Origin: Rhodopirellula sp. SM50
Lineage (GTDB): Bacteria > Planctomycetota > Planctomycetia > Pirellulales > Pirellulaceae
Reading direction: 5' to 3'
Length of the DNA: 64,000 bases
NCBI RefSeq assembly: GCF_002289565.1
Contig: NZ_NTFY01000033.1
Location: 62,001-126,000 of the forward strand
A program made the translations under genes and the position numbers. The notes under the pieces are model-generated. The model saw only the letters and a list, made by a program, of their open reading frames with translations, made no database searches and was not told the DNA's origin. Shown here one piece after another: positions 14,160-36,100 of this stretch. Every line of letters begins with the position of its first letter. Positions within the stretch are counted from its first letter, which is position 1.

Positions 14160-14298
14160 CTTGCCTACTGGTCCGTCGAGCGATCCATGTCATGCGCCGC
14201 TGATCCGTCTGATTGGATCGCGGACTCAAGCCGGTGGGTTGCGGTGCGACGCTGGAAGCGCCAGCCCGAAGACACCCCCAGTGCTCCACTTAAATGAA

Positions 14299-14544: not shown

Positions 14545-14683
14545 CCCAATACCGCTAAGTTAAGCGTCGGTTCTTCAGATGAGGGCCCGTAGGCTCGCGC
14601 CAAACGGCTGATATTCGTTTGATATCAGCCGGTTCGCGCCAGCGTCCGGGCCCCCTCATTCATGTTAACTTAGCGGTATTGGG
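14545..14683. repeat. Long inverted repeat with inner hairpin (139 bp)
   Basis: The outer arms are 14545-14563 and 14665-14683 (CCCAATACCGCTAAGTTAA and its exact complement). At the centre, GGCTGATAT pairs with ATATCAGCC, and GC-rich flanks containing GGGCCC pair partly. Apart from the repeats listed here, the gap 13842-14817 contains no gene that I can support. Confidence 0.8.
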
Positions 14684-14817
14684 TTAAAGCCTGCACACCA
14701 GCGCCGTTGGTGTCCAGCCTTCAGGCGACCGCTTTTCGAGTACGATGGCCCGTCCGGGCCATCGTCCGGAGGACTTTCCCCGACGATCTAGAAAGGACGT
14801 CGTACGACGATCCGCCC

Positions 14818-17935: not shown

Positions 17936-17939
17936 GAGA

Positions 17940-18917: not shown

Positions 18918-18979
18918 CGGTTGTCATCCCACCCCCTCCCCGCCTTCCAACCGGCGTATCCGTTACAGTTTTACAGTCA

Positions 18980-19043
18980 CCCTCCCTGGCAGGGAGGGGC
19001 ATACGCACCAAGTTAAGAAGTCACCCTCCCGTGTGCGGGAGGG
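18980..19043. repeat. Two CCCTCCC/GGGAGGG hairpins
   Basis: CCCTCCCT pairs with AGGGAGGG at 18980-18998, and CCCTCCCG with CGGGAGGG at 19024-19043. A related GAGGGGAGGG follows. The gap 18918-19226 has no other support for a gene. Confidence 0.7.
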
Positions 19044-19226
19044 TCGAGCGCAGCGAGGGGAGGGCCGGTTTGCCTCATCGATTGATCCTCAGCCCCAAAG
19101 CGACCTCCCCGGCCGCTCGTAAACCTTCGATTTCGTGTAAGCTCCTTTCCTTTCAACACCTTGCACGCGGCCAAGCGATTGCAATCTGCAATCAACAGAT
19201 CGGTGCTCGACGGCGGAACCCTCCCC

Positions 19227-19733
19227 ATGAAGAAGCGGATCATCACCAACGCCGAGCAACAAGCCGCTCAACTTCCCGAGGACGGTTGGCTGGATCTGGC
19301 ACAGCTGGCCGACGTCGAAGTCACTTCAGAAGACCCCGCACACCCGATTGAGTCCGCGTTGCTGCCCGGACGAGGTTCGCTCTGGCGCGCCGCCGAACCT
19401 GGCGAACAGACCATCCGCCTGGTCTTCACCAGTCCCCAGCGCATCCAGCGGATCGCCTTGGAATTCTTTGAGCCGCAGATCGAGCGGACCCAGCAATTCG
19501 TCCTAAGCTGGTCCTCCGACGGCGGAGAGACCTACCGCGAGCTGGTCCGCCAACAATGGAACTTCAGCCCCCAAGGGGCGACACAAGAAACGGAAGACTA
19601 TCGAGTGGATTTGACCAACGTCACCACGCTCGAACTAAAGCTCACCCCCGACATCAGCGGCGGAGAAACTCGAGCCACGCTGTCTCGCTTGCGTCTTGCC
19701 TGTACTCCGTCAACAGCCGACGAAAAATCTTGA
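19227..19733 (+). CDS. Conserved-looking protein with F5/8-type-C-like beta fold
   Basis: A 168-residue soluble protein. The start at 19227 (MKKRIITNAEQQ) is preferred over the frame start at 19161, which would add an unlikely leader. The body has the pattern of a discoidin/F5-8-C-like sandwich: LWRAAEPGEQTIRLVFTSPQ, RIQRIALEFFEPQIERTQQF and LSWSSDGGETYRELV, in which a jelly-roll contacts ligands. No signal peptide is visible, so it may act inside the cell. It ends 76 bases before the tRNA gene. Function unknown; I offer the fold with moderate confidence. Confidence 0.6.
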   Translation: MKKRIITNAEQQAAQLPEDGWLDLAQLADVEVTSEDPAHPIESALLPGRGSLWRAAEPGEQTIRLVFTSPQRIQRIALEFFEPQIERTQQFVLSWSSDGGETYRELVRQQWNFSPQGATQETEDYRVDLTNVTTLELKLTPDISGGETRATLSRLRLACTPSTADEKS

Positions 19734-19809
19734 CGAATTGCGAACCCGCCGGCCTTGCAGGTGTCAAATTGGCAGGTTAAGTTCTCCCCAGACCGTCCAC
19801 GACGGCCCC

Positions 19810-19883
19810 GGGCGATTGGCTCAGTTGGTTAGAGCGCTGCTTTCACACGGCAGAGGTCACTGGTTCGAATCCAGTATCGCCCA
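19810..19883 (+). tRNA. tRNA-Val (CAC anticodon)
   Basis: The cloverleaf reads cleanly. The acceptor GGGCGAT pairs with ATCGCCC, followed by discriminator A. The D arm contains GCTCAGTTGGTTAGAGC, the anticodon arm is CTGCT-TTCACAC-GGCAG with anticodon CAC, and the T arm is CTGG-TTCGAAT-CCAG. The CCA end is not encoded. Its 3' half overlaps the antisense end of the adjacent recombinase gene, which fits use as an attachment site. Confidence 0.95.
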
Positions 19884-21216
19884 TCAGGTAGTGATTCCCC
19901 AAGCTATCCTCAACTATAAAAACCCCTGTTTTCCCGAGTGAAACAGGGGTTTTTCCGTTTGGCGGTTCCTGTCCAATAGCGCCAGCTAACCCCGAAATGC
20001 AACCACAGATGCAACCACGATTTGGGGTGTCCTCGGTCGCGTCCGCCTCCAACGGGTTGTCGATGGCGGACGCCTTACGGAATGCTTCTTCGGTCCGCAT
20101 GGCGTAGTGCTTCATCGCCACGGCCACGGTGTTGCCCAGCCACGACGCCACGTCCTTGGCGGGGAACTTGGCCATCAGTTCCGTCTCGCGTGATGCTCGC
20201 AAGTTCTGGAACAATCGGGGCCACGGTTTGTGGCCGGCCCTCTCGATGATCCTGGTGAACTGGGACCGCAAGTTCGCGGCGGACGATCGGTAGCGGTTGA
20301 CGACGTATTCCGAGCCGGGACCGTCCGGCGCACGATCCCATGCTGATTCCAGGTAGGGCCGCAGCTCTTTGAAGATCGGAACTTGGCGGACGCCACCGTC
20401 CGCATGGTGTTCGGTCTTGCTGGCGTGGACGATCATGCGGCCGGCCGGCAGATTCACGTCCATCCATTTCAGACGCAGCACCTCCGAAGGACAACGCAAA
20501 CCACCGAATCGAGCCAACGCCAAAATCGTCTTCCAATCCTCGTCACAGTACTTCATGCAATCCGTGATCACCGATTGTTCGACGAAGTATTGGCGGGCGG
20601 TGTTGCCGCCGGTCGTGGTCGGCAGCTCGTCGAACGGGTTGGAGTCGATCAGTCCACGTTTGACGGCCACAGCAAAAAACTGTTTCACCATCCCAGTTCG
20701 GCGGCGGACCGTATCCTCGGCCATGCTGGTTCGCTTCTGAATCGTGTCACGACGATTCCCCTTGGTCTTCAACCACGTGCGCCATTTTTGGGCGTCCGTG
20801 GCCGTCACATCACGCAACAGTTTTTTCTTGCCGAAATAGTCCAACAGGTTATCGCGTCCCTTCTCGTACGTTTTCAACGTCCCCGGCTTCACGTCCGTTC
20901 GTTCAGCGAAGTATTCGGTCAGCCATGCTGCGATCGTCAGGACACGGGCCTCGCGTTGAACCACGGATTCCACCAGTCCGCATCGGGCCATCTTGTTTCG
21001 CAGCTCATCGTTAATTCCCGCCAGCCAATTCGACGTGGCCAGTTCCGGCGGTTGTCCACGCGGAACCCGGCTCAACAGGTGTTCGACGTGTTCCTTGATC
21101 TCTTGCGCGGACCATTCCGGAATGTCGCCCAACCACATGCTTCGATTGCGCTTTTCGCAGTCCCGAAACTGCAAACGCCAGCCGTTTTTCGCGGCCTCAA
21201 ATCGTAGGCTTGCCAT
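19843..21216 (-). CDS. Tyrosine recombinase (integrase) overlapping tRNA-Val
   Basis: A phage-type site-specific recombinase, most likely the integrase of the accessory region. The start at 21216 (MASLRFEAAK) has GGGAG about 9 bases upstream; ATG 21246 is the alternative and the numbering here counts from it. A SAM-like N-terminal DNA-binding domain covers about residues 100-200. The catalytic core shows Arg251 (FGGLRCPSE), Lys277 (ASKTEHH), Arg350 (LFQNLRASRETE, where the usual His is Asn or Gln) and Tyr381 (AMKHYAM). Beyond residue about 430 the frame runs through the terminator at 19918-19954 and antisense through the tRNA, giving the tail MGDTGFEPVTSAV. This tail would differ in the excised form. 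Confidence 0.9.
   Translation of the reverse strand: MASLRFEAAKNGWRLQFRDCEKRNRSMWLGDIPEWSAQEIKEHVEHLLSRVPRGQPPELATSNWLAGINDELRNKMARCGLVESVVQREARVLTIAAWLTEYFAERTDVKPGTLKTYEKGRDNLLDYFGKKKLLRDVTATDAQKWRTWLKTKGNRRDTIQKRTSMAEDTVRRRTGMVKQFFAVAVKRGLIDSNPFDELPTTTGGNTARQYFVEQSVITDCMKYCDEDWKTILALARFGGLRCPSEVLRLKWMDVNLPAGRMIVHASKTEHHADGGVRQVPIFKELRPYLESAWDRAPDGPGSEYVVNRYRSSAANLRSQFTRIIERAGHKPWPRLFQNLRASRETELMAKFPAKDVASWLGNTVAVAMKHYAMRTEEAFRKASAIDNPLEADATEDTPNRGCICGCISGLAGAIGQEPPNGKTPVSLGKTGVFIVEDSLGNHYLMGDTGFEPVTSAV
19918..19954. terminator. Bidirectional intrinsic terminator
   Basis: AAAAACCCCTGTTT (19918-19931) and AAACAGGGGTTTTT (19941-19954) pair perfectly around a 9-base loop, with A and T runs on the outer sides. 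It fits termination behind the tRNA on the plus strand and, on the minus strand, would lie within the end of the recombinase frame. Confidence 0.85.
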
Positions 21217-21448
21217 CGATATCAACTCCCATTCGTTGAATCCCATGAAGTAAAGAACACCGCGGCGGGCCGGTTATGGGTGACCGGTTTTCGGGGATCA
21301 ACCTAGCCGCGGCAATTCAATTTTAATTGCCTCTCATATCGAAATGCAATCGCCTGGATGACCAAGACTAGGGAGGCAGGCGTGAATCGCTCCCACGGGA
21401 AATCGGTAGGCATACGCAGCGAAACGTTACAGCAAGAATAAGTTTGGT

Positions 21449-21790
21449 TTAGCCAGTCTTTTCACCAAGGACACAAACGATGGGCGACTTCCCTCGCCTA
21501 TTCGTCACCTCAAGCAGCCCAGCCTTTCTGAGCCTCTGCAGCGACCGGTACACTCTCCGTGTCGACAGCCTTAACTCTCCACGCCATCGTGGTGTGAAAT
21601 CGAACTCTGATCGTTTCAGGATTCTTTGAGCATTCAACACAAGCATCCATACCAATAAATCAAAATTGCCTCCAGATTGTTCTACAAAACGGTCTGCTTC
21701 ATCATGAGTCAGCATGAGAAACTTGGGCTTGCCTGTCCGAGCGGTCTTGTCAGTTAGGCTGACGTATTTCCCCCCTTCTCCCGCCATCAT
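21449..21790 (-). CDS. Small winged-helix DNA-binding protein
   Basis: A 113-residue protein. The start at 21790 (MMAGEGGKYV) is chosen for GAGGGAGA about 5 bases upstream. The N-terminal half has hydrophobic helices (FDLLVWMLVLNAQRIL). The C-terminal half reads as a winged helix: LSTRRVYRSLQRLRKAGLLE followed by a wing strand VTNRRGKSPIVCVLG. Such proteins on integrative elements act as replication initiators or regulators. It lies between the polymerase and the recombinase, in the same orientation. The gap 21217-21448 shows no gene. Confidence 0.65.
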   Translation of the reverse strand: MMAGEGGKYVSLTDKTARTGKPKFLMLTHDEADRFVEQSGGNFDLLVWMLVLNAQRILKRSEFDFTPRWRGELRLSTRRVYRSLQRLRKAGLLEVTNRRGKSPIVCVLGEKTG

Positions 21791-21856
21791 CGATCTCCCT
21801 CGATTGTCTAATTGTGTCACTGTAAGAAAAAAGAACTAAATAAAGAACAGACCCGT

Positions 21857-23701
21857 TCAACCAAAACTGGTTGAAGGTAAGACCTGTTCTGGTCGTCCGA
21901 AGCTACGCACACTGTCTGCTTCCAACTCGCTTAGAATCCCTGTCAATTGATCCCACATAGCTGAGCCACGCTCGTCGGAAAAGCGATTTGGCGATACTGT
22001 CGGTGGATCTACTCCCACCTTGAGGCGGGGGCCGCCAAGGATCAACGAACTGGCTTCTTCCATGCATTGCACGGTTGCGAGCCGCACGCTTTCTATTTCT
22101 TCGATCGGTGCTTGGACGAGCAATGCATCGTGAACGGGAGTGCAAACCTCGACCCCTCGCTCGATAGCCAAGCAGCACGCTACGCGTAGCATCTCGGCGC
22201 CGTGCGCCTGCATCATCCAGTTCGAAATCGACGTGGTGGTGTCTGCGCCGGTAACTTGCCATGTCCAGCCGAGACACGTTCGAAACTCTCCAACCAGTCG
22301 CGCATGGTCGATGACTTGCTGACGCCAGTCCCAGAACTTCCGATACGTGTAGCGGTGCTCTCGTAAGACGTAGGCGGCGGTCGATTCGGTCATGTCGCCG
22401 GCGCGGGCAACCGTCGGCGGTTGTGCGCCGTATAGGACGCCCAAACCCGCTGCTACTTTCAACTGGTTCCGGAGTTTCTTGTGCGACTTTTTCGTCGCAT
22501 AAGGCGGGACCAAACGGATCCGCTTACCGAATCCCAAATACGGGTCGTCGTTGGCGTAATCGGCGATCATACGTTCGTCGCCGGAGAAGTATGCCGCCTC
22601 ACCGTATTCCTGCCCGCTCCAGTCGCAGTAAAGCAGCGCGTAGCCGGGTGGCGGCTGAATGAGTGACCTAACCCAACATGCGGGGCCAAACACGCTGAGG
22701 GCGTTGCTAGGCGTGTTCCGGCCCGTCTTAGACCCGAACGGCGAGAGTAGGAATCGGTTTCTTCCATCGGATCCGATCCGCAGTTTGTCGAACAACCGAG
22801 TGCGCCGGACCGTTTGTAGAAACTCTTTCAACTGCATGATCGGCGGCACGTATTTCGCCCAGTCCGACAAGGTGTTCGAACTTGTGCTAAGTCGTCCCTC
22901 GGGTGTGCGCGGCCAACCGCCCAGTCCGTGAGACTCCAACCACGTAGCAAATTTTCGTTGGTCGATGTCTTTATCTCCAATAACGTCGAACTTGTCCCGG
23001 TTGCGTGCGACCAGTCGTTCCGTGATGTCGTTCCAGTTCGCCTTGAACCGTTCAGCTAATTCAGCATCGACCGGGATCCCTCGCCGCTCCATGGCAGCAA
23101 CCGCCGCCATATAGCGACCACGAAAGAGCGCTGGCGCCAACTCCACATGTGGCGACATTTTCGGCAACAAGTTTACCAACGCCGTAACGTCGGTTTCGCA
23201 ATAGTCCACGATGCTCCGTAGCTCGTGCGAGCTGTACGGACCGCCGCGCATGCACAGTTCCCGCATCTCATCCTTGTGACTGGCGGCAGCTGCGTCCGAC
23301 GTTAAGCCGAACGCAAACATGCACGCCAGGAGGGAATGTCGCTCACCGCTTTTCAATGCCAGCTTTTCAGCGGCGCTACGGGTTCGGTCGCGACCATTCG
23401 CTAACACCCGGAACTCGACCTGCAAATCCAGTATCCGCGCCGGGATCTCCCACTCCATCGCTATGTGGCAAGTGATCTCCGCCGCCGCGTAGTAGCTGAC
23501 GTACAGACTCCTGTCGTCCAGCGAAATCGGGCACCGTTTCGGATGCCGGTCCCACAACCGTTCGCGGACCGTCTCGCCTGATAGGATGTCCGTCGCCACC
23601 ATGCAAATCGGCTTTGGCGCGTCAGCTCCGGAAGCTCCGGTGAAGTATTCGAAGTCGACGCACCAAATCCGATCGTACAGACTTGCAAGTCGGTCGATCA
23701 T
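21857..23701 (-). CDS. Family A DNA polymerase with 3'-5' proofreading domain
   Basis: A 614-residue polymerase of the phage/plasmid type, without the 5' nuclease domain of cellular Pol I. Exonuclease motifs: DFE (Asp16, Glu18), an AAAEITC segment in place of the second motif's usual Asn/Asp, and YCETD (Tyr168, Asp172). Polymerase motifs: A, LLYCDWSGQEYGEA (Asp360); B, RNQLKVAAGLGVLYG (Arg411, Lys415, Tyr424); C, PVHDALLVQ (His524, Asp525). All catalytic aspartates are present, so the enzyme is probably active. Its ATG overlaps the end of the upstream gene by 4 bases, implying one transcript. It presumably copies the element after excision; no helicase or primase is seen nearby. Confidence 0.93.
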   Translation of the reverse strand: MIDRLASLYDRIWCVDFEYFTGASGADAPKPICMVATDILSGETVRERLWDRHPKRCPISLDDRSLYVSYYAAAEITCHIAMEWEIPARILDLQVEFRVLANGRDRTRSAAEKLALKSGERHSLLACMFAFGLTSDAAAASHKDEMRELCMRGGPYSSHELRSIVDYCETDVTALVNLLPKMSPHVELAPALFRGRYMAAVAAMERRGIPVDAELAERFKANWNDITERLVARNRDKFDVIGDKDIDQRKFATWLESHGLGGWPRTPEGRLSTSSNTLSDWAKYVPPIMQLKEFLQTVRRTRLFDKLRIGSDGRNRFLLSPFGSKTGRNTPSNALSVFGPACWVRSLIQPPPGYALLYCDWSGQEYGEAAYFSGDERMIADYANDDPYLGFGKRIRLVPPYATKKSHKKLRNQLKVAAGLGVLYGAQPPTVARAGDMTESTAAYVLREHRYTYRKFWDWRQQVIDHARLVGEFRTCLGWTWQVTGADTTTSISNWMMQAHGAEMLRVACCLAIERGVEVCTPVHDALLVQAPIEEIESVRLATVQCMEEASSLILGGPRLKVGVDPPTVSPNRFSDERGSAMWDQLTGILSELEADSVRSFGRPEQVLPSTSFG

Positions 23702-24549
23702 AAACCGAGCGCCTCTTTCACCGCGTCGTGCTCCATGTCCACAATGATCCTATCCTTACACGCAACTGCAATCGCTTTGTCGAAGTCAAACTTCGACCAG
23801 TCCGGCGCGTCATAGTCGGCAATGGGTTCTTCGTAGTCGTATCCGCCTCCAGATAAGTTCGCTACAGGTTTCAACCATTTGTCGATGGCGATCGCCGCCA
23901 GATTCAGCCGGGACCTCGCCCACTTATCGGCCGATTCATTTCGACCGTTGGGAATCTTTAGCTCCCAGATAAACGGATCTCCGTGCCGCACCACTCCGAG
24001 TACTAATAGTGCCTCGGTCAATCGCTGTTTTTCGGCGAGTACGTTGGCGACTTCGGTCCCTGGACGCACGTAGTACGACTTGGGCGACATGTCCCCGTCG
24101 AAAGTGTATTCAAACAAATACACGGGCCGACAATTCACGTAGGCCGACACGTCACTGCCGTCTCCAGTGTCAAACTTCATAACGCGGATGAACTTATCCT
24201 TGGGCGGCCTGGTCGCCGCTCGGATCGTCGTCATTTGCGTGCGAGTCTGGACCAGCGGAACCGGTGCCCAGAGCTCAGACAGGTTGTACGGATCAGGCCC
24301 TTCGCTGATGTCAGTGGATGTCGTATCTGACGTGGAACCATCCGTCGACATGTCCTCACTCGTTTGGGCATTCGGTCCGTCGCTTATCGATTCCTCGGAG
24401 GCAGGCATCTCTGCGTTGGTTTCGTCGGACGCTATCGTCGGCGTTCGATCGCTATCGTCCATCAAGTTTTTCGGATTATCAGCCGGTTTTTCCGTAGAGT
24501 TCCCCGGATTTTGTTCTGTCCCATTCGGCGGGATGGTAGAATCATCCAT
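23698..24549 (-). CDS. Unknown protein upstream of the element polymerase
   Basis: A 283-residue protein. The start at 24549 (MDDSTIPPNGTEQ) is chosen for AAGGAG about 8 bases upstream; the frame is open to 24753 but without a better site. Residues 1-110 are low-complexity and acidic (Ser, Thr, Asp, Glu, Pro), probably disordered. Residues about 115-283 are folded, with FIRVMKFDTGDGSDVSAYVN, VYLFEYTFDG and a C-terminal acidic helix. I do not recognise the family. The 4-base overlap with the polymerase gene suggests a partner in replication, for example a single-strand-binding or loading factor, but no motif proves this. Confidence 0.6.
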   Translation of the reverse strand: MDDSTIPPNGTEQNPGNSTEKPADNPKNLMDDSDRTPTIASDETNAEMPASEESISDGPNAQTSEDMSTDGSTSDTTSTDISEGPDPYNLSELWAPVPLVQTRTQMTTIRAATRPPKDKFIRVMKFDTGDGSDVSAYVNCRPVYLFEYTFDGDMSPKSYYVRPGTEVANVLAEKQRLTEALLVLGVVRHGDPFIWELKIPNGRNESADKWARSRLNLAAIAIDKWLKPVANLSGGGYDYEEPIADYDAPDWSKFDFDKAIAVACKDRIIVDMEHDAVKEALGL

Positions 24550-24759
24550 CAGTGTTTCTCCTTGTTGGTCGGCAGATGTTAGTGGCATCGCCGGCCGTTT
24601 TTTTTGTGTTTGAAACAGACCTGCTGACACAGTGTCCCCAGGTCGTCGTGTTGAAATTTGTCGATTGCGAATAGACACATCGCACAATCGGATTGGTAGC
24701 AAGTGTTTATACGGCGGTTTTGCGAATAGCTCGGACGCACGGCAGGCAAACATGTCACT

Positions 24760-25002
24760 TCAATCGGCCTGCGACGCATTGGCCAAATGCTGAATGACCG
24801 CATGCGGATCGAACAACACCTTGCGGCCGACACGGATCACCGGCAATTCGCGATCGCGCAGCATTGTGTCCAACTTTGGCACGCTCACGCCGATCACTTG
24901 TGACAGCTCATTTCGCGTCAGTAGGCGGCGACGGTTGGCCAGTCGATCCGCAACACGTTCGGCAACGGCGTTGGCAAGCGATTCAAGTTCAGCGGGTGTC
25001 AT
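24760..25002 (-). CDS. Excisionase-like helix-turn-helix protein
   Basis: An 80-residue protein of the MerR-like/HTH_17 excisionase type: LTRNELSQVIGVSVPKLDTM, then ELPVIRVGRKVLFDPHAVIQ with the typical wing and RVGRK turn. GAGGAAAGG precedes the ATG. Its ATG overlaps the stop of the next HTH gene by 4 bases, so the two are coupled. Proteins of this kind direct excision or control the integrase. Confidence 0.75.
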   Translation of the reverse strand: MTPAELESLANAVAERVADRLANRRRLLTRNELSQVIGVSVPKLDTMLRDRELPVIRVGRKVLFDPHAVIQHLANASQAD

Positions 25003-25319
25003 TGCCTTTCCTCCCTCTGCGTTGAATTCCAGGTTAGGTTGTCGCCGCTGTCACTTCCCTTGGAGTCTTGCTGGTCCGGCACCTTTGCGTTTAATTCCTG
25101 CGTTGCCGCAGGGCAACCGGCGGCGATCCAACGTTCGATTGCCGTTGCGTCCCACCGGATCAGACGCCCAACCTTCATCGGCTTCGGCATTTCGCTGCGG
25201 TCAGCCATGCGCTGGATTGTTCGTTGGGACACCTCCAACCGCGCAGCGATCGACCGAGCCGACAGTAGCTGAATCTCATTCAGGCCGTGTCGATTTCTTG
25301 GTACGGGTTCTTTAGCCAT
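24999..25319 (-). CDS. AlpA/HTH_17-family DNA-binding protein
   Basis: A 106-residue protein; the start at 25319 (MAKEPVPRNRHG) is chosen for AGAGGAA just upstream. The DNA-binding core is LLSARSIAARLEVSQRTIQR, followed by MKVGRLIRWDATAIERWIAA, the classic AlpA/excisionase winged fold. The Gln/Ser/Asp-rich tail is likely disordered. First gene of the minus-strand cluster that runs to the recombinase. The IS21-type element sits in the 190 bases upstream, so its promoter may be displaced. Confidence 0.75.
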   Translation of the reverse strand: MAKEPVPRNRHGLNEIQLLSARSIAARLEVSQRTIQRMADRSEMPKPMKVGRLIRWDATAIERWIAAGCPAATQELNAKVPDQQDSKGSDSGDNLTWNSTQREERQ

Positions 25320-25631
25320 TGAATTCCTCTTTTGTTTGTCGATCGGGTCAACACAAGTCAAGCCCCAGTGGGTCTTGTCGTCAGGCGAGATCGTACAGAC
25401 GCGAGTAACAGCAGTGCAAGAATTGCGCACTGCACAGTCGTGCGCAGGTTTCCTTCGAACCTGCATTCGTCAGTACACGATTCGTTGAACCGGAGCAGCT
25501 GACGAAATCCATGTCACGGGGCGCCCAAAAGGGACCAGTAATGGGCGCTTCAAAGTCCTCCACACTGTGAGGGGATTGGCCGAACTACCGTATCTCGTTT
25601 TGCATCCCGCGAAACGGAGAAATGGTATCCG

Positions 25632-27221
25632 GTGGCCAATCATTTAAGCGTGACTAAGTCCAATTCTATTAAGCAGTTACATCAACAGGGATTGTCTCAA
25701 AGGCAGATCGCTGCAGCAGTCGGTGTCGATCGCAAGACCGTCAGACGGCAATTGGCCGGTAACCCGGCAGACGCTGCCCCCAATTCGGATCCAAAAGGGA
25801 CCAGCGCGCCCACCGGGATTGCCGCCGGTGAACCGGTCACCGAGTTGGACAAGCAAAGCGAGCAGTTGGTGCCCTATTCGCCCAGCCAGTGCCAGCCATT
25901 TCGCCAGGCGATCGAGCAGATGCTCAGCGCAGGGTTGTCCGCTCAGCGTGTCTTCCAAGACTTGCAAACAGAGCACGCTTACCAGGGCAGCTACTACAGC
26001 GTCCGTCGATTCGTCAAGAAACTCCGCACCGAAAAACCCGAAGCGTTTCGCCGTCTCGAAGTCGAGCCAGGATTCGAAGCGCAAGTCGATTTTGGTACCG
26101 GTGCCCCGGTCATCGATGAGAACGGTCGACGACGGAAAACCCATGTACTGCGCGTCGTGCTGAGTCATTCACGAAAGGGGTATGCCGAAGTCGTCTACCG
26201 CCAAACCACCGATGAGTTCATCACCGCACTGGAGAACGCTTTCGTGGCCTTCGGTGGAGTGCCCAAGGTGATTGTGATCGACAACCTCAAGGCGGCTGTC
26301 AAGAATCCAGACTGGTACGACCCCGAGTTGGTTCCCAAGCTCCAGGCATTCGCCGATTACTACAACACCACCGTCTTGCCGACGCGTCCTTACACGCCAA
26401 GGCACAAAGGCAAGGTTGAGCGTGGCGTCGACTACGTCCAGGAGAACGCACTCAAAGGAAAGTCGTTCACGTCACTCTGTGAACAGAATGACTACCTTGC
26501 CAATTGGGAATCGAACGTCGCCGACAAACGCATTCACGGCACGACACAGAAGCAAGTCGGAACGCATTTCGAAACAACCGAAAAGCCGACATTGCAGCCG
26601 CTTCGGATCGATCGCTTTCCGAATTTCTATGAGGGTCGGCGCAAGGTCAGTCGCGATGGTCACGTGGCGGTGGAACGAGCCTACTACAGCGCGCCACCTG
26701 AATACGTTGGTTACTCCGTCTGGGTGCGTTGGGATTCGCGCACGGTTCGATTACTTGACAATGACTTGAAGCAGATCGCGATTTTCGCACGTAGCGTCGC
26801 CGGAAAGCACAACACAAATCCACAACATATAGCAAGCGAAAAAATCAATTCGATTGAGCGTGGGACGGGGTATTTACTGCGAAAAGCCTCGGCTATCGGC
26901 AATTTTAGCGCCCGCTGGAGTGAGGCCATGCTGGAGCAGCGTGGCATCACCGGACATCGCGTGCTGCACGGGCTGATCCAACTTGCGAACAAACATCGCT
27001 ACGACCAAATCGAACAGGCGTGCGACATCGCTTGGCGACACGGTGACTTCCACCTCCGAACGCTTCGGAGGTTGATCAAGCGCAAGGAAGCCGTCCAGCA
27101 ACTGATGCCATTCTTGGAAGATCATGAACTGATCCGTCCGTTGGCAAGCTATGACCAATTCGTACACGAGTGTGTGCAAAGGAACCTGTATCAATCTCAA
27201 GGAGGAAAGAGTGATGAATGA
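25632..27221 (+). CDS. istA: IS21-family DDE transposase IstA
   Basis: A 529-residue transposase starting at GTG 25632. The N-terminal helix-turn-helix is KQLHQQGLSQRQIAAAVGVD. An rve/DDE core follows with Asp153 (EAQVDFGTG), Asp217 (VIVIDNLKAAVK) and Glu263 (HKGKVERGVDY). It cuts and joins the ends of the element. The 3' end overlaps istB by 8 bases, and AGGAGG for istB lies inside it. The HTH-to-core linker (residues about 43-80) is encoded by DNA carrying an AAAAGGGACCA repeat. Confidence 0.93.
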   Translation: MANHLSVTKSNSIKQLHQQGLSQRQIAAAVGVDRKTVRRQLAGNPADAAPNSDPKGTSAPTGIAAGEPVTELDKQSEQLVPYSPSQCQPFRQAIEQMLSAGLSAQRVFQDLQTEHAYQGSYYSVRRFVKKLRTEKPEAFRRLEVEPGFEAQVDFGTGAPVIDENGRRRKTHVLRVVLSHSRKGYAEVVYRQTTDEFITALENAFVAFGGVPKVIVIDNLKAAVKNPDWYDPELVPKLQAFADYYNTTVLPTRPYTPRHKGKVERGVDYVQENALKGKSFTSLCEQNDYLANWESNVADKRIHGTTQKQVGTHFETTEKPTLQPLRIDRFPNFYEGRRKVSRDGHVAVERAYYSAPPEYVGYSVWVRWDSRTVRLLDNDLKQIAIFARSVAGKHNTNPQHIASEKINSIERGTGYLLRKASAIGNFSARWSEAMLEQRGITGHRVLHGLIQLANKHRYDQIEQACDIAWRHGDFHLRTLRRLIKRKEAVQQLMPFLEDHELIRPLASYDQFVHECVQRNLYQSQGGKSDE

Positions 27222-27996
27222 ATCATTGACCCGGACGCTTCGCGAACTTCGTTTGAGCGGCTTGGCCGAGACGCTGGAAGTGCGTCTGGCCGAAGCTGTC
27301 TCGAGCAAGCTGACGCACTTGGAGTTTTTAGAACTGGTGCTCGCAGACGAGTCACTTGTGCGTGGTGATCGACGTATCGCTCGGGGCGTCAAGCGAGCCG
27401 GCTTTCGCGATGTCCGTCGCTTGGAAGATTTTGATTTCTCCTTCAACAAAAGCATCGATCGAACGAGGATCTTCGATTTGGCCAGTGGGCACTTCCTGCG
27501 TCAATCACGTGACGTTCTGTTGTGCGGTCCTCCCGGTACTGGCAAAAGCCATCTCGCCCAAGCGATCGGGCATGCGGTGATCCGTAGTGGCGCATCGGTG
27601 TACTACCGGAGCATCTTTGATGTCGTACGTGACTTCCTGCACGACGAAGCGATCGGCGGTGAAGAGAAGGTGATGAATCGTTATCTCAAACCAGATCTGT
27701 TGATCATCGACGACATGGGAATGAAGCAGCTTCCCAAGCGAAGCGGCGAGTACCTGTTCGAGATCATCATGCGCCGCCACGAAGTCCGCAGCACCATGAT
27801 GACGAGTAATCGTCCCTTGGAAGATTGGGGCAAACTGATCGGTGATGTACCGAGCGCCAGCGCGATCCTCGATCGATTTTTGCAGTCGGCTGAGATCCTG
27901 AAAATCACGGGTCGGAGCTACCGCCTCGGAAAAGGTCCAGAAAGTTCAAAAGGGACCAAAGCGCCCACCGGCTCGGAAGCCAAAAAGAAGCCATAG
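27214..27996 (+). CDS. istB: IS21-family helper ATPase IstB
   Basis: A 260-residue DnaC-like AAA+ ATPase; the start at 27214 (MNESLTRTLREL) follows AAGGAGGAAAGAG. Walker A is GPPGTGKS (residues 105-112), Walker B LLIIDDMG (about 152-159), and the sensor region is STMMTSNRPLEDW. It helps IstA select targets. The C-terminal tail (GPESSKGTKAPTGSEAKKKP) is encoded by a copy of the terminal repeat and may be a late extension. Confidence 0.93.
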   Translation: MNESLTRTLRELRLSGLAETLEVRLAEAVSSKLTHLEFLELVLADESLVRGDRRIARGVKRAGFRDVRRLEDFDFSFNKSIDRTRIFDLASGHFLRQSRDVLLCGPPGTGKSHLAQAIGHAVIRSGASVYYRSIFDVVRDFLHDEAIGGEEKVMNRYLKPDLLIIDDMGMKQLPKRSGEYLFEIIMRRHEVRSTMMTSNRPLEDWGKLIGDVPSASAILDRFLQSAEILKITGRSYRLGKGPESSKGTKAPTGSEAKKKP

Positions 27997-28303
27997 AAGC
28001 GGCGATCAATCGCCGACATCTCGACCACCAATTTTAAAAGGGACCAATATCGCCCATCGGTGGTCCCTTTTGAAGCGCCCCGTGACAATCCAAGAGGTGA
28101 TACGGACGAACTCGCCTCTACCGTTACACACTAAAATTGAATTGCCGACCGAAAAGAGATTACGCACCGGAAGAGAGATTCACATTTCCAATCCTCGATA
28201 AGGAGCGAGATCTTCGGTCCCCACCGAGCGTCAGCAGTAGAGTGAATCCGGAGAAATGCGTGAATCATTTGTCAGAGGATCGAAGCAGGAATCGTGTAAT
28301 GCT

Positions 28304-29476
28304 TCAGATCGAATCTTTCGAGAATTGCGGATGCCGATCCTTACCTACGCCTAAAAACCGTGAGAGATTCGTCGCATTTGCGTAGTCTCTTCTATACCTC
28401 TCGTATTTCCGTCGATGATTAAGAATCGTAGATTCCTGCTCGGTTTTCGATGAGCTTTCGAAAGAACTCTGATCGATTGAAGCAACATCGTAGCCAAGGC
28501 GTATTGCCGCTTTGGCAATATCAGTGTCCTTGGCTATACCACGCTGCCAGTGCCAAAAAAAGAAGCGATCGCGCGTCAAATCCCCTGGATATTCATCCAC
28601 TGGTGGATCTCCTGAGTACTTGGGGATTGGCTTGTCCAAACCATAATTCCACCACTTTTCTGGATGCACGGGACCCTCAGCAAGCCATTTTTGACCGGTC
28701 ACTGGCGAGATACGGCAACCTGATGGCCGGTACACTCTCCTTAGAGCGTCGATGACTGCAGAGGCGAAATCTGTCGACACAACGTCGAAACACCAACAGT
28801 GCTGAGAACGATCCAACCCCCATGAATCGAGATCTACTCCGAGCGCGCACTCAGAGTCACGCAAGGGCTCTCCCGTCATCGTGGTCGCATTGGACATTTC
28901 CGCGTCAGGAAGGATAGGATAAAGACCCGGATTCTGAAAAAAACTGTACGGCTCCGTAGGCCGTTCCTCGATTCGCGAGTCAGGTAGACGCCGTCGGACG
29001 ACCCTGAAAATCCGCTCATCGTCGTTCTCGGGAGACCTGCGCCGTTGAGGATAAGCGTATTCGGCAAAGAGGGCGAGATACCGCTCGTCTACATCAGGTC
29101 TTAAAAGTAACCAATCAGCGATCCCAAGCGAGTCAAGCTTGTCGATCACGATCTGCGTTTCGTTCGTTCCAAACCTGACGACATCAGCACGGTGAAATCC
29201 GGAAATGGCATACATAATTTGGTGCCCGGGAAGCCATTCCAAAAAGTGCCGCCTGTTTGTCCGCTCCATCGCAATCTCTTCAAGTTCATCAATGCAGTGC
29301 TGCGCCCATCTTGTTTCGTTCTCCTCGGGACCAAAAAACCGAAAAGCATTAAATGTACCGAACAAAACGTACGGGATTGGGCGGCGGTCCACCGCCCTTA
29401 ACTCGTGGCATATCAAATCGAGATCTTTCACCTTCGTACTCCATCGCAGCCGAAACGTAATAGCGACATTAGTCAT
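28304..29476 (-). CDS. Unknown cargo protein, 390 residues
   Basis: A soluble protein with no signal peptide. It contains several Trp/His-rich stretches (NETRWAQHCIDELEEIAMER, HFLEWLPGHQIMYAISGFHR, DSWGLDRSQHCWCFDVVSTD). The C-terminal part (RGIAKDTDIAKAAIRLGYD) could be a helix-turn-helix. I recognise no family. It starts about 600 bases from the next plus-strand gene, in divergent orientation, and its 3' end faces the IS element. A defence or regulatory role is possible for an accessory gene of this sort but is not shown. Confidence 0.55.
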   Translation of the reverse strand: MTNVAITFRLRWSTKVKDLDLICHELRAVDRRPIPYVLFGTFNAFRFFGPEENETRWAQHCIDELEEIAMERTNRRHFLEWLPGHQIMYAISGFHRADVVRFGTNETQIVIDKLDSLGIADWLLLRPDVDERYLALFAEYAYPQRRRSPENDDERIFRVVRRRLPDSRIEERPTEPYSFFQNPGLYPILPDAEMSNATTMTGEPLRDSECALGVDLDSWGLDRSQHCWCFDVVSTDFASAVIDALRRVYRPSGCRISPVTGQKWLAEGPVHPEKWWNYGLDKPIPKYSGDPPVDEYPGDLTRDRFFFWHWQRGIAKDTDIAKAAIRLGYDVASIDQSSFESSSKTEQESTILNHRRKYERYRRDYANATNLSRFLGVGKDRHPQFSKDSI

Positions 29477-29635
29477 TTCTCTCGGCTAATAGCAGCTTCG
29501 CTCAGCTGCGTCATTGAGCCGCAGTCTGCTTGCTTATTCTCAGTTCTCAGCGTGAAACCTGTCTCGCCATCCTAATTCTCGGCACGATCGTCGTGTGCTT
29601 CCGGGGCGGCCGTAATTGCAAAAAAGTGGACTCAT

Positions 29636-30078
29636 TTAGTCGCACCTACTGTGTTTCACCGCTTTGAGTTTCACCGCGTCTTCCATGTCGATCACATTCT
29701 CGCTAGCGACAGCGTCTTGATTCGCTCCGTCAGCCGGCAAACCAGGTTGACCGCTGCGTCGACCAACCCCTGGATAGCGATTAGTTGCCGCAATGGTTTC
29801 CATCATAGTGGCACCTGTGGTTATTGGGCCGCCCGGGGTGGAGGCCGTTGATCGCTGTAGCTGGCAGTTTAAGTCAATGAATCGTTCGACTTGGGCGGCC
29901 ATGGACATCATTTGGCGATACGTCGTCTCGGGACGTTGAATGATCGCTGCGTTCCGGATCGGATTGCAGCCCGAGGCAAAATACTGGCAGTAAGTCAGTT
30001 CTGTCAGATTGATCGGATTTGGTGAATTCTGAGAATGTTGTGTAATTGCGTTGCCGGCTGGAACCCTCCCGACCGCCT
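29636..30078 (-). pseudogene. Start-less coding frame, probably a decayed gene
   Basis: The frame is open from a stop near 30078 to 29636 and reads like protein throughout (NLTELTYCQYFASGCNPIRN, QVERFIDLNCQLQRSTAS). The first ATG is about halfway, at 29911, with no ribosome site. Either the 5' end has been lost or a 92-residue protein starts at 29911. It is divergent from the 30100 gene. Family not recognised. The gap 29477-30099 contains nothing else. Confidence 0.4.
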
Positions 30079-30099
30079 ACCTCGCAACACTTTCACGTC

Positions 30100-30885
30100 A
30101 TGACCAAACAAATAAATCTCACAAACACACGAAGAAGTCGTATCGCGACCAACGGCCTCCGGGCTCCAGACTGGCGTTGGCAGCTCGCGGTGGGCTCTGC
30201 GCCTGTTACCGCAGCCACACGGCGACCTGACGCGATCTGCTGGCACCTGGTTGATTATCTGGTGCACGGCGACGAGTGGATTACATCGCTCGATGGCACT
30301 CGTCGGTTCTCAATCAGGCCGCTGCTGACGATCCACAACGATCGGCTGCAGCGTCTAACGCTTGAGAGCCGGATTCTGGCCGTGCGTGACATCACACTTG
30401 CCGCCGAGGCATCGCGTGTCCCGGTCCAAGTTGCCAACGACTACTGCAGCATTTTTTTCGACGTCGGCGATCGTTTGCACGCGGTCCGGGCGATCGACAA
30501 CAAGATCATCCACGCGGCCGACCACCGCGACGACATCGTCCGCAGCGAGCTGTACTGGCACGCGTACTTTGGCGGACCGCTGGTTGCCGAACACTGGCTC
30601 TCGCACCTGCCTTTTATTGGTTGCGAAGCCAAACACGATCTGGAAACACCAGAAGGCCGACAGCGGGAGCAAATTGAACTGACGATCGCATCGCGTGAAC
30701 CGGCCCCCGAGTTCCACGACAGCAAGCTGCTGCCTGTCTACCAGCAGCTACTCGACCGGTCCCCGACAACCCGTCCCTACGCCGAATGCGTCCTAGATCA
30801 CGTCACAGACGCCCTGGTGGCCCACTGGCGCCGTACGCCGACCAAAGCCGCCCGGAAGATCGTTGACTCACGAATTGCCGCCTAG
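30100..30885 (+). CDS. Unknown protein, first of a two-gene unit
   Basis: A 261-residue protein; ATG 30100 (MTKQINLTNTRRS) is preferred over the frame start at 30046. It begins with a basic helix region (RSRIATNGLRAPDWRWQLA), a pattern I have seen in proteins of mobile planctomycete regions. The middle is ordered and helical, with many His and Asp residues, and the C terminus is basic. The next gene starts 19 bases later, so the two are probably co-transcribed. No enzyme motif was found. Confidence 0.55.
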   Translation: MTKQINLTNTRRSRIATNGLRAPDWRWQLAVGSAPVTAATRRPDAICWHLVDYLVHGDEWITSLDGTRRFSIRPLLTIHNDRLQRLTLESRILAVRDITLAAEASRVPVQVANDYCSIFFDVGDRLHAVRAIDNKIIHAADHRDDIVRSELYWHAYFGGPLVAEHWLSHLPFIGCEAKHDLETPEGRQREQIELTIASREPAPEFHDSKLLPVYQQLLDRSPTTRPYAECVLDHVTDALVAHWRRTPTKAARKIVDSRIAA

Positions 30886-30904
30886 CCATCAACGGAGAAC
30901 TCTC

Positions 30905-31774
30905 ATGTCCATCTACCTCCGCCGAATCGGCGTCAACTCGTTTGTGACGGAAGTCTCGCGCCAACAAGAGAAGGTCGTGACGCGTCACCTGGGGAGCTAC
31001 AAGAACCCGTTCGTACGCATCATTTACCGGAAGTCTGAGTTGCACAAGGCGCTCGCAAGGTTGCTCCGAATCGAAAGGAACGCGATCCGCCAAGAGTGCC
31101 GCGAGATCGAGCAGACCATGAAGCTGCTTGAAGCCCTCATCAATCACTTTTTCGTCATTCTCCGACTGGCCGAGGCGCGTTTTCAGGAGCAATCCCCCAT
31201 GCCGAAGTCCCGATCGCGACGGCAAACAACAGCCGCCGCAACGAAATCCGCCGCAACAAGACCGGACCTGGAGAGCCTCGACGAAGCGCTGCAGGTCCTT
31301 CCGGCCAAACACGCATTCGGCAAGCTGTGCCGGCAGGCCGACGCGGGAGACCCCGACGCCTTGCGCCAGCTCGATGAACTGATCGAGCAAACACCCGAGA
31401 TTCTCGAATCGACAGCGGACCTGATTCGGTTTGCAAAACAGTCGGTACTGCGTGGGATCTCACGCGACAGCGTTGTTTTCACCAAAGCGATGACGGCCAA
31501 GCTCCAGGTGATGGAAGACAGGATCAAGGCGGATCACGACGAAGATCCGATCCTGGGCATGATGGCAGAGGTCGTGGCGGTCAGCCACCTGGACGCGATG
31601 CGCTGCGCGTTACTCGCCCTCAACGGATCTGAAAATAAAACCGACGCCGATCACATTCAAGGACTTGCCGGTCGATCGCTGCGACGCTTCACCAACGTTC
31701 AGCAGGCTTACCAACGTCTCTGCCGGCAAAAGCAACGCAGCCGAGCCGCCACACGATCACGTAAACCCAAATAG
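30905..31774 (+). CDS. Mobile-region helical protein with 'G-x-V-x-x-x-L-G' N terminus
   Basis: A 289-residue protein; GGAGA lies 8 bases before ATG 30905. The N terminus (MSIYLRRIGVNSFVTEVSRQ, then VVTRHLGSYKNP) resembles a small beta unit that I recall from a widespread unknown family in integrated elements. The rest is helical, with a basic Ser/Arg/Gln linker at about residues 98-115. A segment of the type FGKLCRQADAGDPDALRQLD follows, then a basic tail. It follows the 30100 gene by 19 bases. The biochemical role is unknown. Confidence 0.6.
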   Translation: MSIYLRRIGVNSFVTEVSRQQEKVVTRHLGSYKNPFVRIIYRKSELHKALARLLRIERNAIRQECREIEQTMKLLEALINHFFVILRLAEARFQEQSPMPKSRSRRQTTAAATKSAATRPDLESLDEALQVLPAKHAFGKLCRQADAGDPDALRQLDELIEQTPEILESTADLIRFAKQSVLRGISRDSVVFTKAMTAKLQVMEDRIKADHDEDPILGMMAEVVAVSHLDAMRCALLALNGSENKTDADHIQGLAGRSLRRFTNVQQAYQRLCRQKQRSRAATRSRKPK

Positions 31775-31851
31775 CTACTCTTCATACAGCATGGACTGCT
31801 ACCCAATGCCACCAGTTCCGTAACATCAGTCCCCAATCAGGAAACCAACTC

Positions 31852-32301
31852 ATGTTTTTCCTTTCCGAACAATCCCGATTCCATCTCGCGGCGTTAACCG
31901 ACATCATTGTTGCCGTCGAGAAATCGCTCGCGTCGATGCCAGGTAGCCGCCACAGTAGTTGCGCTTGCGAGCTGGACGAACACGCTGACTATTTCAAGGA
32001 TGATCCCTCGGACCGCGTGTGCCTGCGGTTCGGCCGGATCAGAAACCATCCCGGCGAATGCCTGCATGTCGAGGTCTCCGACGAGACTGGTGAAATCTCC
32101 TACGCGGTCTGGATCTGCGATAAGCTCCTCCCCGATCTCATCCGAATTGCTGTGGCCAGCAGGGCCCCCAGGCTGATCAGGCTCGCCGCCACTGATGCGG
32201 ACGAAGTCGACGTTGAACTGATCAGAAACACTGCCATAGCCGCCATAAAGGCGTCCCGGGAGTTGTTCCAGCCAGCTCATCCACGCCCCGTCCTGTGGTA
32301 A
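31852..32301 (+). CDS. Small unknown protein
   Basis: A 149-residue acidic soluble protein; AGGAAA precedes ATG 31852. It lies 77 bases behind the previous gene and may belong to the same unit. It reads as a compact alpha/beta protein (CLRFGRIRNHPGECLHVEVS, SYAVWICDKLLPDLIRIAVA). No motif recognised. The last 15 residues may be less reliable because the frame ends in a region where other frames are also open. Confidence 0.55.
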   Translation: MFFLSEQSRFHLAALTDIIVAVEKSLASMPGSRHSSCACELDEHADYFKDDPSDRVCLRFGRIRNHPGECLHVEVSDETGEISYAVWICDKLLPDLIRIAVASRAPRLIRLAATDADEVDVELIRNTAIAAIKASRELFQPAHPRPVLW

Positions 32302-33690: not shown

Positions 33691-34182
33691 ATGGATATTT
33701 CAGCTCTTGCTCGACCCGATAACCCTCAGCCAAAGGATCCCGAGGACGAGATTCGGTTTCCCTTCGGAGAAAATCCGCACGCAATGAAGTTGTCGCAAAT
33801 TGTTTGGGACAGTGACTATTGCGCGTACTATGCTGAGCATTGGTGGCTCCCACCGCCGCTTCCAGGACCTGATGACTGCGGAGAGTCGATCTTGGGCATT
33901 CCATGGTTGTGGTATTGGCTCGCGATCGGCTGCGAAGGATGCGACAGCGAGCCTGACCCGTTTGTTCTTCCGACGGTCATTGCGATCTGGAACCAATCGA
34001 TCAAAAATAATAGGCGGGAAGTCCCGATCAACAACCAATTCTTGGAAGACTATGGCCTGAAGCCGAGAAGCGCAGATCGAGCACTGAAGCGGCTGCACGA
34101 CAAGTCGTTGATCATCTACACGATCAAAAACAGAAAGTATAACAGCGTGATCATTCTTCCTACGCCAGTAGCAGCCGAATGA
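33691..34182 (+). CDS. Unknown protein with C-terminal winged-helix-like region
   Basis: A 163-residue protein starting at ATG 33691. The first half is acidic and rich in Trp and Pro (YYAEHWWLPPPLPGPDDCGE). The second half looks like a winged helix (EVPINNQFLEDYGLKPRSAD, then RALKRLHDKSLIIYTIKNRK), as in replication or control proteins of mobile elements. A 14-bp inverted repeat lies 40 bases behind the stop. Exact role unknown. Confidence 0.55.
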   Translation: MDISALARPDNPQPKDPEDEIRFPFGENPHAMKLSQIVWDSDYCAYYAEHWWLPPPLPGPDDCGESILGIPWLWYWLAIGCEGCDSEPDPFVLPTVIAIWNQSIKNNRREVPINNQFLEDYGLKPRSADRALKRLHDKSLIIYTIKNRKYNSVIILPTPVAAE

Positions 34183-35059: not shown

Positions 35060-36100
35060 TCAAGCTTGGTCGAATTTCCGGCGGCAGCAGGGACACTCGC
35101 CGTCGAATCCATGGTGCAAGGCCGTGAACGCAGTCGGCTGGGGAAGGGACATGATCGCTTTAAACGCCAATGGGTCTCTGTGGGCGTAGTGCCGATAGGT
35201 AACGCCACCAACGGAGTGCCCCAGGATCTCGATCGAGGATTCAGGCATGTGCTCATCGTAGTACGTCGCCGCAGTTTTTCGCAGATCTTTCAAAACCCAG
35301 AGCGTTTCTTCGCCGGTTTCCACGTCCTGCTTCGGCTTGACGCCCGCGAGGGCGCACAACAGCTGAAACTTTTTGTTGGGTCGTGAAGTGCCACCGGCAA
35401 AGACCGGCTCGTCGGGCTGGGGCGTTTCCGGCCAGATGCTCTTCAGGTGTGCGTGGACGACACGGTTCATTGGGCGATGGAATTGCTTTTGCGTTTTGAC
35501 CCGCCGGTAAAACAGCCAGCCGCAGCGACACTCTTTGCCCTGGCCGTTTGGTGGTTCGGATCGCCATGACACGTGTCGCCACAAGATTGGCTCGTGGAAT
35601 CCGGCGGACCTGAACACGGTTCCGGTGTCGACGCCGTAATTGAAGAAGACGACCAGTGCCGCTCGCCAATAATGCCCTACCATGTATGGCTGCTTCCAAC
35701 CTCGCAGTCGCGGCAGCCGGTAAGTGGCGAAGTACAGAGCGTTGAGATCGGGCTTGGTCAGGTAGTGCCGTCCCGCGACGTCCCGTTGCGGCTTCGGTTT
35801 CGGGAACGGAGGCAGCTTGGCGAGAAATTCTTGTTCCCATGCCCAGGCCAAGATAGCCCGAAGGTTTTCACGAGCCTTGTTCGCTGTCCGACCGGGATTG
35901 GACCCGCCGTTCGCTTCGGCTTGGTCGTGAACCCAGTCCAAGAAATCACGAATGTGGGATCGGTTGATCTGGTCGACATCGACGCCTTTGCCCCAGGTCG
36001 TCCACTTGGTGACGGTCGATTTGTATTCTTTGCGGGTCCCGCCGGAAAGTTTCTTGGCAGTAAGGTACTTGGCTGAGATCGCTTCAACGCTGTTTGACAT
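35060..36100 (-). CDS. Tyrosine recombinase with atypical first catalytic motif
   Basis: A 346-residue phage-integrase-like protein; GGAG precedes the ATG. The N-terminal SAM-like domain covers about residues 1-95 (GGTRKEYKSTVTKWTTWGKG). In the catalytic part, the Lys strand is FYRRVKTQKQFH, the second Arg is in VLKDLRKTAAT (with Lys in place of the usual His), and HSVGGVTYRHYAHR supplies the late His and the Tyr nucleophile. The first Arg, normally GLRxxE, is not evident: the aligned strand reads NYGVDTGTVFRSAG. A Cys-pair tail (CPCCRRKF) may bind zinc. It may mark the far end of the accessory region or a second element. Confidence 0.82.
   Translation of the reverse strand: MSNSVEAISAKYLTAKKLSGGTRKEYKSTVTKWTTWGKGVDVDQINRSHIRDFLDWVHDQAEANGGSNPGRTANKARENLRAILAWAWEQEFLAKLPPFPKPKPQRDVAGRHYLTKPDLNALYFATYRLPRLRGWKQPYMVGHYWRAALVVFFNYGVDTGTVFRSAGFHEPILWRHVSWRSEPPNGQGKECRCGWLFYRRVKTQKQFHRPMNRVVHAHLKSIWPETPQPDEPVFAGGTSRPNKKFQLLCALAGVKPKQDVETGEETLWVLKDLRKTAATYYDEHMPESSIEILGHSVGGVTYRHYAHRDPLAFKAIMSLPQPTAFTALHHGFDGECPCCRRKFDQA

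Follow-up and report, generated by a model that had tools for sequence, protein, structure and literature searches.

Why does a compact integrative element carry a DNA polymerase of its own? The question is raised by a locus of Rhodopirellula sp. SM50 (Planctomycetota) in the window analyzed here, a stretch of 64,000 nucleotides (nt; assembly GCF_002289565.1, contig NZ_NTFY01000033.1, positions 62,001 to 126,000), where a family A polymerase gene stands in a short row of genes that ends at an integrase. A preliminary description drawn from the bare sequence had proposed a compact integrative element, perhaps a satellite or self-replicating island of an undescribed type. The locus is probably a small, tRNA-targeted integrative element built around a transferable replication cassette of three genes, which encode the polymerase (POL), its partner (UNK), and a winged-helix protein (WH). 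We infer that the element is replicated and transferred. Coordinates are those of the window, and genes are longest open reading frame (ORF) calls throughout. Loci with related polymerases are coded L (L122–L137 being viral contigs from IMG/VR) and compared genomes G, of which G000 is the window's own (146 contigs, 9.8 Mb).

Architecture of the element at tRNA-Val

The core of the element and its target comprise the following features (aa, amino acids; HTH, helix-turn-helix; ssDNA, single-stranded DNA).

19810..19883, plus strand: tRNA-Val(CAC), the integration target (ARAGORN)
19843..21246, minus strand: tyrosine integrase, 467 aa, its frame ending within tRNA-Val (PF00589, E 1.2e-7; phrog_1, E 9.2e-37)
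21449..21820, minus strand: WH, 123 aa, likely origin-binding initiator (position and predicted fold)
21857..23701, minus strand: POL, 614 aa, family A polymerase with 3′-5′ exonuclease motifs (PF00476, phrog_17, residue conservation)
23698..24549, minus strand: UNK, likely ssDNA-binding; frame open from 24753, conserved domain approximately 23698–24294
24760..25002, minus strand: HTH2, 80 aa, excisionase- or regulator-like (HTH_17, E 6.6e-6, slightly below the Pfam cut-off)
24999..25466, minus strand: HTH1, excisionase- or regulator-like (HTH_17, E 1e-6; phrog_66, excisionase and transcriptional regulator, E 2.8e-10)

The five genes from HTH1 to WH lie in one direction on the minus strand with the integrase at their end, just as first described. 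The 4-base overlaps that had been reported between them are found at two of the four junctions, as ATGA at 23698–23701 and 24999–25002; the other two are gaps, of 36 bp between POL and WH and of 6 or 210 bp between UNK and HTH2, depending on the start chosen.

In four genomes of the same genus (G403, G394, G404, and G392), blastn similarity to the window ends precisely with the tRNA, whose final base is 19883, and the window integrase has no match in the stretches fetched from these genomes, of which that of G404 reaches 1.3 kb past the tRNA. The left boundary of the island is thus at 19883/19884, the 3′ end of tRNA-Val. An integrase beside a tRNA gene and a sharp junction with genomes that lack the element identify an integrative element, and this junction, together with seven relatives bounded by direct repeats (below), bears out the earlier view that the element is compact, integrative, and equipped with a family A polymerase of its own.

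The polymerase and its partners

POL matches PF00476 (E 1.3e-14, 54.4 bits) and the phage polymerase family phrog_17 (E 1.2e-34, 120.5 bits), and a five-row POL alignment matches solved Pol I structures (best 8jrb, E 3e-31). Residues D16, E18, Y167, D171, D360, E365, R411, K415, H524, and D525 are each invariant in 91–94 of 94 aligned polymerases; their roles in the exonuclease and polymerase motifs are those that we take to apply from the Klenow fragment. The DxE and YxxxD exonuclease motifs are present, so that the proofreading and catalytic residues claimed at the outset are in place. One residue, G419, is extra in motif B of the window POL and is missing from the other 93 of the 94 sequences.

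The structure prediction suggested earlier for the 23698–24549 protein places UNK nearest to single-stranded DNA-binding proteins (SSBs) of the gp32 type, with weak similarity. A plain Foldseek search of the PDB with this model gave no match at E 0.001, and a sequence search of the PDB gave nothing meaningful; against BFVD the best E was 0.006, and two of 50 rows were named single-stranded DNA-binding protein. On its predicted fold UNK is a likely ssDNA-binding protein. The predicted fold of WH is nearest to plasmid RepA initiators, and its sequence retrieves ordinary HTH regulators from the PDB; as modeled, WH is likely an origin-binding initiator. The window WH is too divergent for sequence clustering; its place in the operon and its fold assign it to the WH family.

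Relatives in bacteria and an archaeon

A collection of genomes from 84,980 species was searched with a five-sequence POL alignment as query and tblastn confirmation at E 1e-3, which retrieved 184 POL relatives; the window POL as single query found no relative in the same collection. The results on genomic loci below refer to the best 80 of these 184 (E 2e-121 or better). With their neighborhoods, they carry out the profile and neighborhood searches that had been recommended for the polymerase. By record, 41 of the 80 belong to Pseudomonadota, 22 to Planctomycetota, and three each to Nitrospinota and Actinomycetota, while three are unplaced; Bacillota, Binatota, Hydrogenedentes (by title), Methanobacteriota, Myxococcota, Acidobacteriota, Kiritimatiellota, and Lentisphaerota have a single locus each. 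The best 80 relatives thereby cover 12 phyla and include one archaeon (Methanosalsum natronophilum, Methanobacteriota, locus L075), with the reservation that some contigs of metagenome-assembled genomes may be misbinned (odd labels at L095 and L115; also L107). A single-sequence search of 392 sampled genomes from the window's phylum gave matches in 158, of which six matched strongly (E < 1e-40, the window's genome included); the other matches (5e-13 or weaker) are taken, from sequence, for ordinary Pol I. Within the window's genus, an intact copy is present in three of 14 genomes and a fragment in a fourth.

Neighborhoods were clustered from the ORFs around 97 POL loci (80 genomic, 16 viral, and the window). 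UNK is found at 72 of the 80 genomic loci and WH at 56, and both adjoin POL at 52. A tyrosine or serine recombinase lies within 6 kb of POL at 54 of the 80, and at 20 of the 25 where both flanks extend to 5 kb. Seven relatives are elements of 7.6–12.5 kb that lie at tRNA genes between direct repeats; five measure 7.6–8.8 kb.

L062: 12.5 kb, 20-nt repeat
L079: 8.1 kb, 20-nt repeat
L093: 8.75 kb, 22-nt repeat
L094: 8.2 kb, 22-nt repeat
L089: 7.6 kb, 13-nt repeat, the weakest of the seven
L043: 10.2 kb, 73-nt repeat, POL broken
G401: 8.2 kb, 15-nt repeat, a clean element

Two further candidates were left uncounted: L046, with a 17-nt repeat, 15.5 kb, and tRNA-Ser, has no integrase within 6 kb, and G171 has a 43-nt repeat pair spanning 40.6 kb.

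At L079 (13601–13667) and L104 (6465–6531), paired direct and inverted 9-bp motifs, differing in sequence between the two loci, lie within the terminal part of the integrase gene, close to the tRNA, and are perhaps recombinase arm sites. A short protein family follows WH, 3′ of the cassette, in six loci (L056, L071, L096, L112, L118, and L121); its L118 member has an HGGxSTG domain (NF041373).

Exchange of the cassette as one block

Eight planctomycete elements were compared gene by gene: those of the window, G393, G401, K23_9 (L079), CA13, R. rubra (L093), R. sallentina, and R. maiorica (L104). Among the seven others, identities are 75–91% for POL, 58–89% for UNK, and 47–85% for WH, against 39–40%, 23–28%, and 22–25% between the window and any of the seven. 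This holds even for G393, which has an element at the same site (UNK 23%, POL 39%, WH 22%). The window integrase, by contrast, is 90% identical to that of G393 and 53–76% to the rest, which diverge equally among themselves, and the window HTH2 is 69–85% identical to all seven. As UNK, POL, and WH diverge where integrase and HTH2 do not, the simplest reading of these sequences is that the three genes were swapped in the window copy as a single block between HTH2 and the integrase. Exchange as a block is our strongest sign that UNK, POL, and WH work together.

The ratio of nonsynonymous to synonymous change (dN/dS) is 0.06–0.15 across seven gene-pair comparisons of POL, UNK, WH, and integrase among the relatives, with synonymous change near saturation in two of them; these genes are therefore selected as proteins, under purifying selection.

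Repeat arrays downstream of the polymerase

Repeat arrays with a period of 21–24 bp occur within 1.2 kb downstream of POL at 22 of 97 loci, against one of 85 upstream and two of 97 inside POL. A stricter test, at lags 21–23, finds them at nine of 95 loci and in none of the controls (0 of 97 and 0 of 85). In the viral contigs L124, L132, and L135, POL is followed by the WH gene and then by 22-bp repeats. Repeat searches of the window copy found no such iterons.

Iteron-like arrays and a RepA-like WH fold would also suit an integrated plasmid-like replicon, in which WH and iterons maintain an autonomous circle that integrates only occasionally. This is unlikely: the window POL has no match among 72,556 plasmids, and the POL of a relative, used as query, has 28 partial matches there at approximately 28% identity or less, although no specific search for relaxase or partition genes was made.

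Phages, prophage remnants, and satellites

Among the nine proteins of 19843–31774, IS21 aside, Pfam and PHROGs searches gave no convincing match to capsid, terminase, helicase, primase, or conjugation proteins, in agreement with the preliminary description as regards capsid, terminase, helicase, and conjugation genes. Four more ORFs at 31852–36100 include one integrase and are otherwise without a named match. The two HTH proteins resemble, at borderline scores of E 0.0016 and 0.0007, an HTH-type family of small terminases; there is no firm small-terminase match in the window. The set of large terminase (TerL), portal, major head, and tail genes by which a tailed-phage prophage is recognized was not found, and the scanned window proteins include no TerL. 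In these proteins the element has instead the outline of a satellite, being compact and having an integrase and no capsid, tail, or TerL gene. A primase family was found neither among the scanned window proteins nor among 33 selected proteins of relatives (five bounded elements, L081, and L066), whose matches at E 0.001 are to integrases, HTH proteins, two nameless families, and one small terminase (that of L081).

A phage satellite proper would be induced by a helper, replicate by its own cassette, and be packaged in helper capsids, some of the relatives redirecting the terminase through a small subunit of their own. We regard this as a serious possibility that falls a little short of even odds. 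In its favor, a firm small-terminase gene adjoins the cassette at four of the 80 genomic loci (L081, phrog_83, E 1.3e-30; L117, phrog_83, E 5.3e-27; L097, phrog_51, E 5.4e-14; L061, phrog_57, E 7.8e-19), the same polymerase occurs in TerL-bearing phage contigs, and the size, tRNA site, and lack of capsid genes are those of known satellites, as far as the excerpts of PMC10803314 and PMC13376191 describe them. Against it, no helper is known, the small-terminase genes are assigned to the interior of the elements from their position, and a fifth candidate, at L062, is weak (E 0.0057). With only four firm cases in 80, satellite-like genes belong to a few of the relatives and not to most. The early guess at a satellite was a fair one, but no small terminase was found in the window to support it.

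The cassette is also present in real phages, and this weighs against our reading of it as the core of an integrative element. Of the 16 IMG/VR contigs with POL, nine have a large terminase, and some have portal or head genes; UNK is found in four of the 16 and WH in eight. In the nine TerL contigs, the 44 proteins scanned gave 11 matches to large terminase, five to small terminase, and two each to portal, head protease, and major head protein. Phages of Gordonia, Mycobacterium, and other hosts, annotated as phage genomes, carry homologous polymerases of the phrog_17 type, the named phages matching over part of POL with 20–27% identity among the matches listed. It had been foreseen that the block might turn out to be part of an ordinary prophage; the viral contigs speak for this, and the genomic loci do not, as a large terminase was found in the stored flanks of none of the 80.

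The elements might be defective prophages, the early replication regions of phages like L122 or L124 after the loss of structural genes. In support, some phages with terminase, portal, and head genes do encode this polymerase, and L057 retains a head protease beside its cassette. Such an origin is nevertheless rather improbable, given that several hosts have elements of bounded size with a similar order of genes, that no TerL was found in the stored flanks of the 80 genomic loci, and that dN/dS is low for POL, UNK, WH, and integrase. The polymerase tree is a further point against it. This is a quick tree with long branches, the window's included, in which six of the seven TerL-contig polymerases fall into one eight-row group with Bradyrhizobium L082 and Caenispirillum L083 (92 in the Shimodaira–Hasegawa-like approximate likelihood ratio test, below the 95 mark), separate from the remaining elements; L135, the one TerL-contig polymerase outside this group, has a very long branch.

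Two scans of neighbor proteins covered 101 and 92 proteins (of 132 and 148 with at least 90 aa, the second plus a few extra ORFs and U390, a 390-aa gene of the window); their results comprise the best 25 of 55 and the best 25 of 31 matched families, and rarer phage families may be present. The 101-protein scan gave two single matches to "virion structural protein"; a virion protein suspected from it in L044 was not confirmed. At L057 (Neobacillus mesonae, 13105–21548), which was scanned separately, the cassette is followed by the prohead protease and, farther on, by the type I restriction genes hsdR, hsdM, and hsdS.

Proposed mechanism

In the reading that we favor, a tRNA-targeted element around UNK, POL, and WH, the integrase would excise the element as a circle with an HTH protein acting as directionality factor. 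WH would bind the iterons and open the origin, UNK would coat the single strand and partner POL, and POL would copy the circle with a helicase, perhaps also a primase, supplied by host or phage. The copies would then reinsert or leave the cell, most likely inside phage particles, as satellites do.

POL may, alternatively, serve DNA repair, defense, or host fitness instead of copying the element. For the polymerase of pipolins, a function in repair or damage tolerance has been put forward (in the excerpted text of PMC9710591), and a few upstream neighbors match restriction or defense models, in one protein each. The frequent SSB-like and initiator-like neighbors of POL, the origin-like repeats, and the exchange of the genes as one block make it a poor candidate here.

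A bolder form of our reading is that UNK and POL together constitute a primase-polymerase, like that of MP and CCPol in the staphylococcal SCCmec element (below) but with a proofreading enzyme, which with WH and 22-bp iterons would form a three-gene replicon needing little from its host. This is a tentative and rather doubtful proposal. To be taken with the same reserve is its second part, that the replicon circulates between integrative elements and phages, in bacteria and at least one archaeon, swapped as a cassette and perhaps tracking changes in helper phages.

Comparison with known systems

The recombinases of staphylococcal cassette chromosome (SCC) elements are of the large serine type. 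A published precedent for a replication module of this kind is the pattern-2 operon CCPol-MP-Cch2 of SCCmec, in which the family A polymerase CCPol and its ssDNA-binding partner MP synthesize primers de novo and Cch2 recognizes a 23-bp direct-repeat sequence adjoining the operon (as given in the excerpts of PMC7581432). The likeness to the present element lies in an integrative island with a family A polymerase beside a small, predicted β-rich ssDNA-binding partner and a third, repeat-binding protein. However, in the same partial account CCPol is without a 3′-5′ exonuclease domain and Cch2 is a helicase, whereas here the polymerase is of the proofreading type and WH is a winged helix of 123 aa. 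Because of these two differences, the resemblance is one of working, not of membership; SCCmec is set apart here by description. The SCC pattern-2 and transposon/virus family A polymerases (TV-Pols) pair an exonuclease-free polymerase with a D5-family or Cch2 helicase, in contrast to the exonuclease motifs found here and the lack of a helicase in the scanned window proteins, IS21 aside. TV-Pols share with POL their being family A polymerases of mobile elements, and are described as D5-helicase-linked in the passages of PMC7581432 that treat them; the comparison is one of descriptions.

Pipolins are likewise integrative, often at tRNA genes, with a tyrosine recombinase, attachment (att) repeats, and a polymerase of their own (PMC9710591 and PMC7385651, in part). 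Their piPolB is of family B, in contrast to the family A (PF00476) polymerase of this element. PICMI (phage-inducible chromosomal minimalist island) satellites have integrase, AlpA, and primase (PMC10803314, in part). With these and other phage satellites the element shares a size of approximately 6–20 kb, an integrase, a small regulator, a replication gene of its own, and no capsid genes (by the excerpts of PMC10803314, PMC13376191, and PMC6092414). In place of the PICMI primase reported in the first of these, it has POL together with proteins that resemble an SSB and an initiator.

Among open-licence PMC papers, we found no satellite that has a polymerase of family A. As far as these searches reach, the cassette is unpublished, and for it the label "undescribed type" can be kept; the label does not extend to the presence of a family A polymerase in a replicating island, which is known from the CCPol of SCCmec (PMC7581432, in part). 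If the reading is correct, widespread small integrative elements have so far escaped notice behind the annotations "DNA polymerase" and "hypothetical protein", and they replicate through a module that differs from the primase-based ones of known phage satellites. The reading would also extend satellite-like islands to Planctomycetota and Nitrospinota, with a replication cassette common to islands and phages, and would offer a candidate for a second family A primase-polymerase.

The far side of the island

Beyond HTH1, the following features were found.

25512..28087, plus strand: IS21-family insertion, istA 25632–27221 and istB 27151–27996 (IstB_IS21, E 2.2e-63; rve, E 1.4e-9)
28304..29476, minus strand: U390, 390 aa, co-oriented with the operon and upstream of it, beyond IS21 (ORF)
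30046..32301, plus strand: three ORFs of 279, 303, and 149 aa (79% nucleotide identity with the G393 island over 30151–32127)
33691..34182, plus strand: second WH-family-like protein, 163 aa (tblastn E 2e-4 to 4e-3 against POL-adjacent WH genes of L083, L111, L122, and L060)
35060..36100, minus strand: second tyrosine integrase (phrog_1, E 4e-21; PF02899, E 2.2e-5)

The block had been drawn as ending at 25319, which does not hold, as the IS21 copy and U390 lie beyond this point. IS21 has terminal inverted repeats at 25512–25533 and 28066–28087 and the 5-bp target repeat ATCCA at 25507–25511 and 28088–28092, and is separated by 45 bp from the longest HTH1 frame, on the upstream side. A right attachment site (attR) was not found in the window: a 15-mer at 28044–28058, with one mismatch to the tRNA end, lies inside IS21 among its own repeats. 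The element therefore probably runs past 28087, through U390. Given the IS21 upstream, the failure to find attR or iterons, and the extra G419, the window copy may be damaged or impaired.

In G393, a related island between matching flanks occupies the same tRNA. Its similarity to the window covers 15034–18969, 19720–21325, 24782–25004, 30151–32127, and 32464–32570, and then resumes from 36968 onward; from these segments the island region is taken as 19884 to approximately 36.9 kb. A 17-nt repeat with two mismatches at 15613 is a possible attR of the G393 island, too weak for use.

U390 is probable cargo. It is without a match in Pfam, PHROGs, and NCBIfam, which rules out its belonging to a known family there, and relatives occur in two of 60 genomes, the window's counted. 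The three ORFs at 30046..32301 may belong either to this element or to another. The 303-aa protein (30863–31774) has three copies in G393 (73–75% identity) and one in G403 (73%), and with such multiple copies it is, judged by sequence, part of something mobile in the genus. The 33691–34182 protein has a 50% identical copy in the G393 island; together with the integrase at 35060–36100, it possibly represents the remains of a second, tandem element at the far end of the island. Farther along the window, the minus strand has one uninterrupted reading frame of 5348 aa (47876–63922), with repeated stretches that look cadherin-like and dockerin-like by eye.

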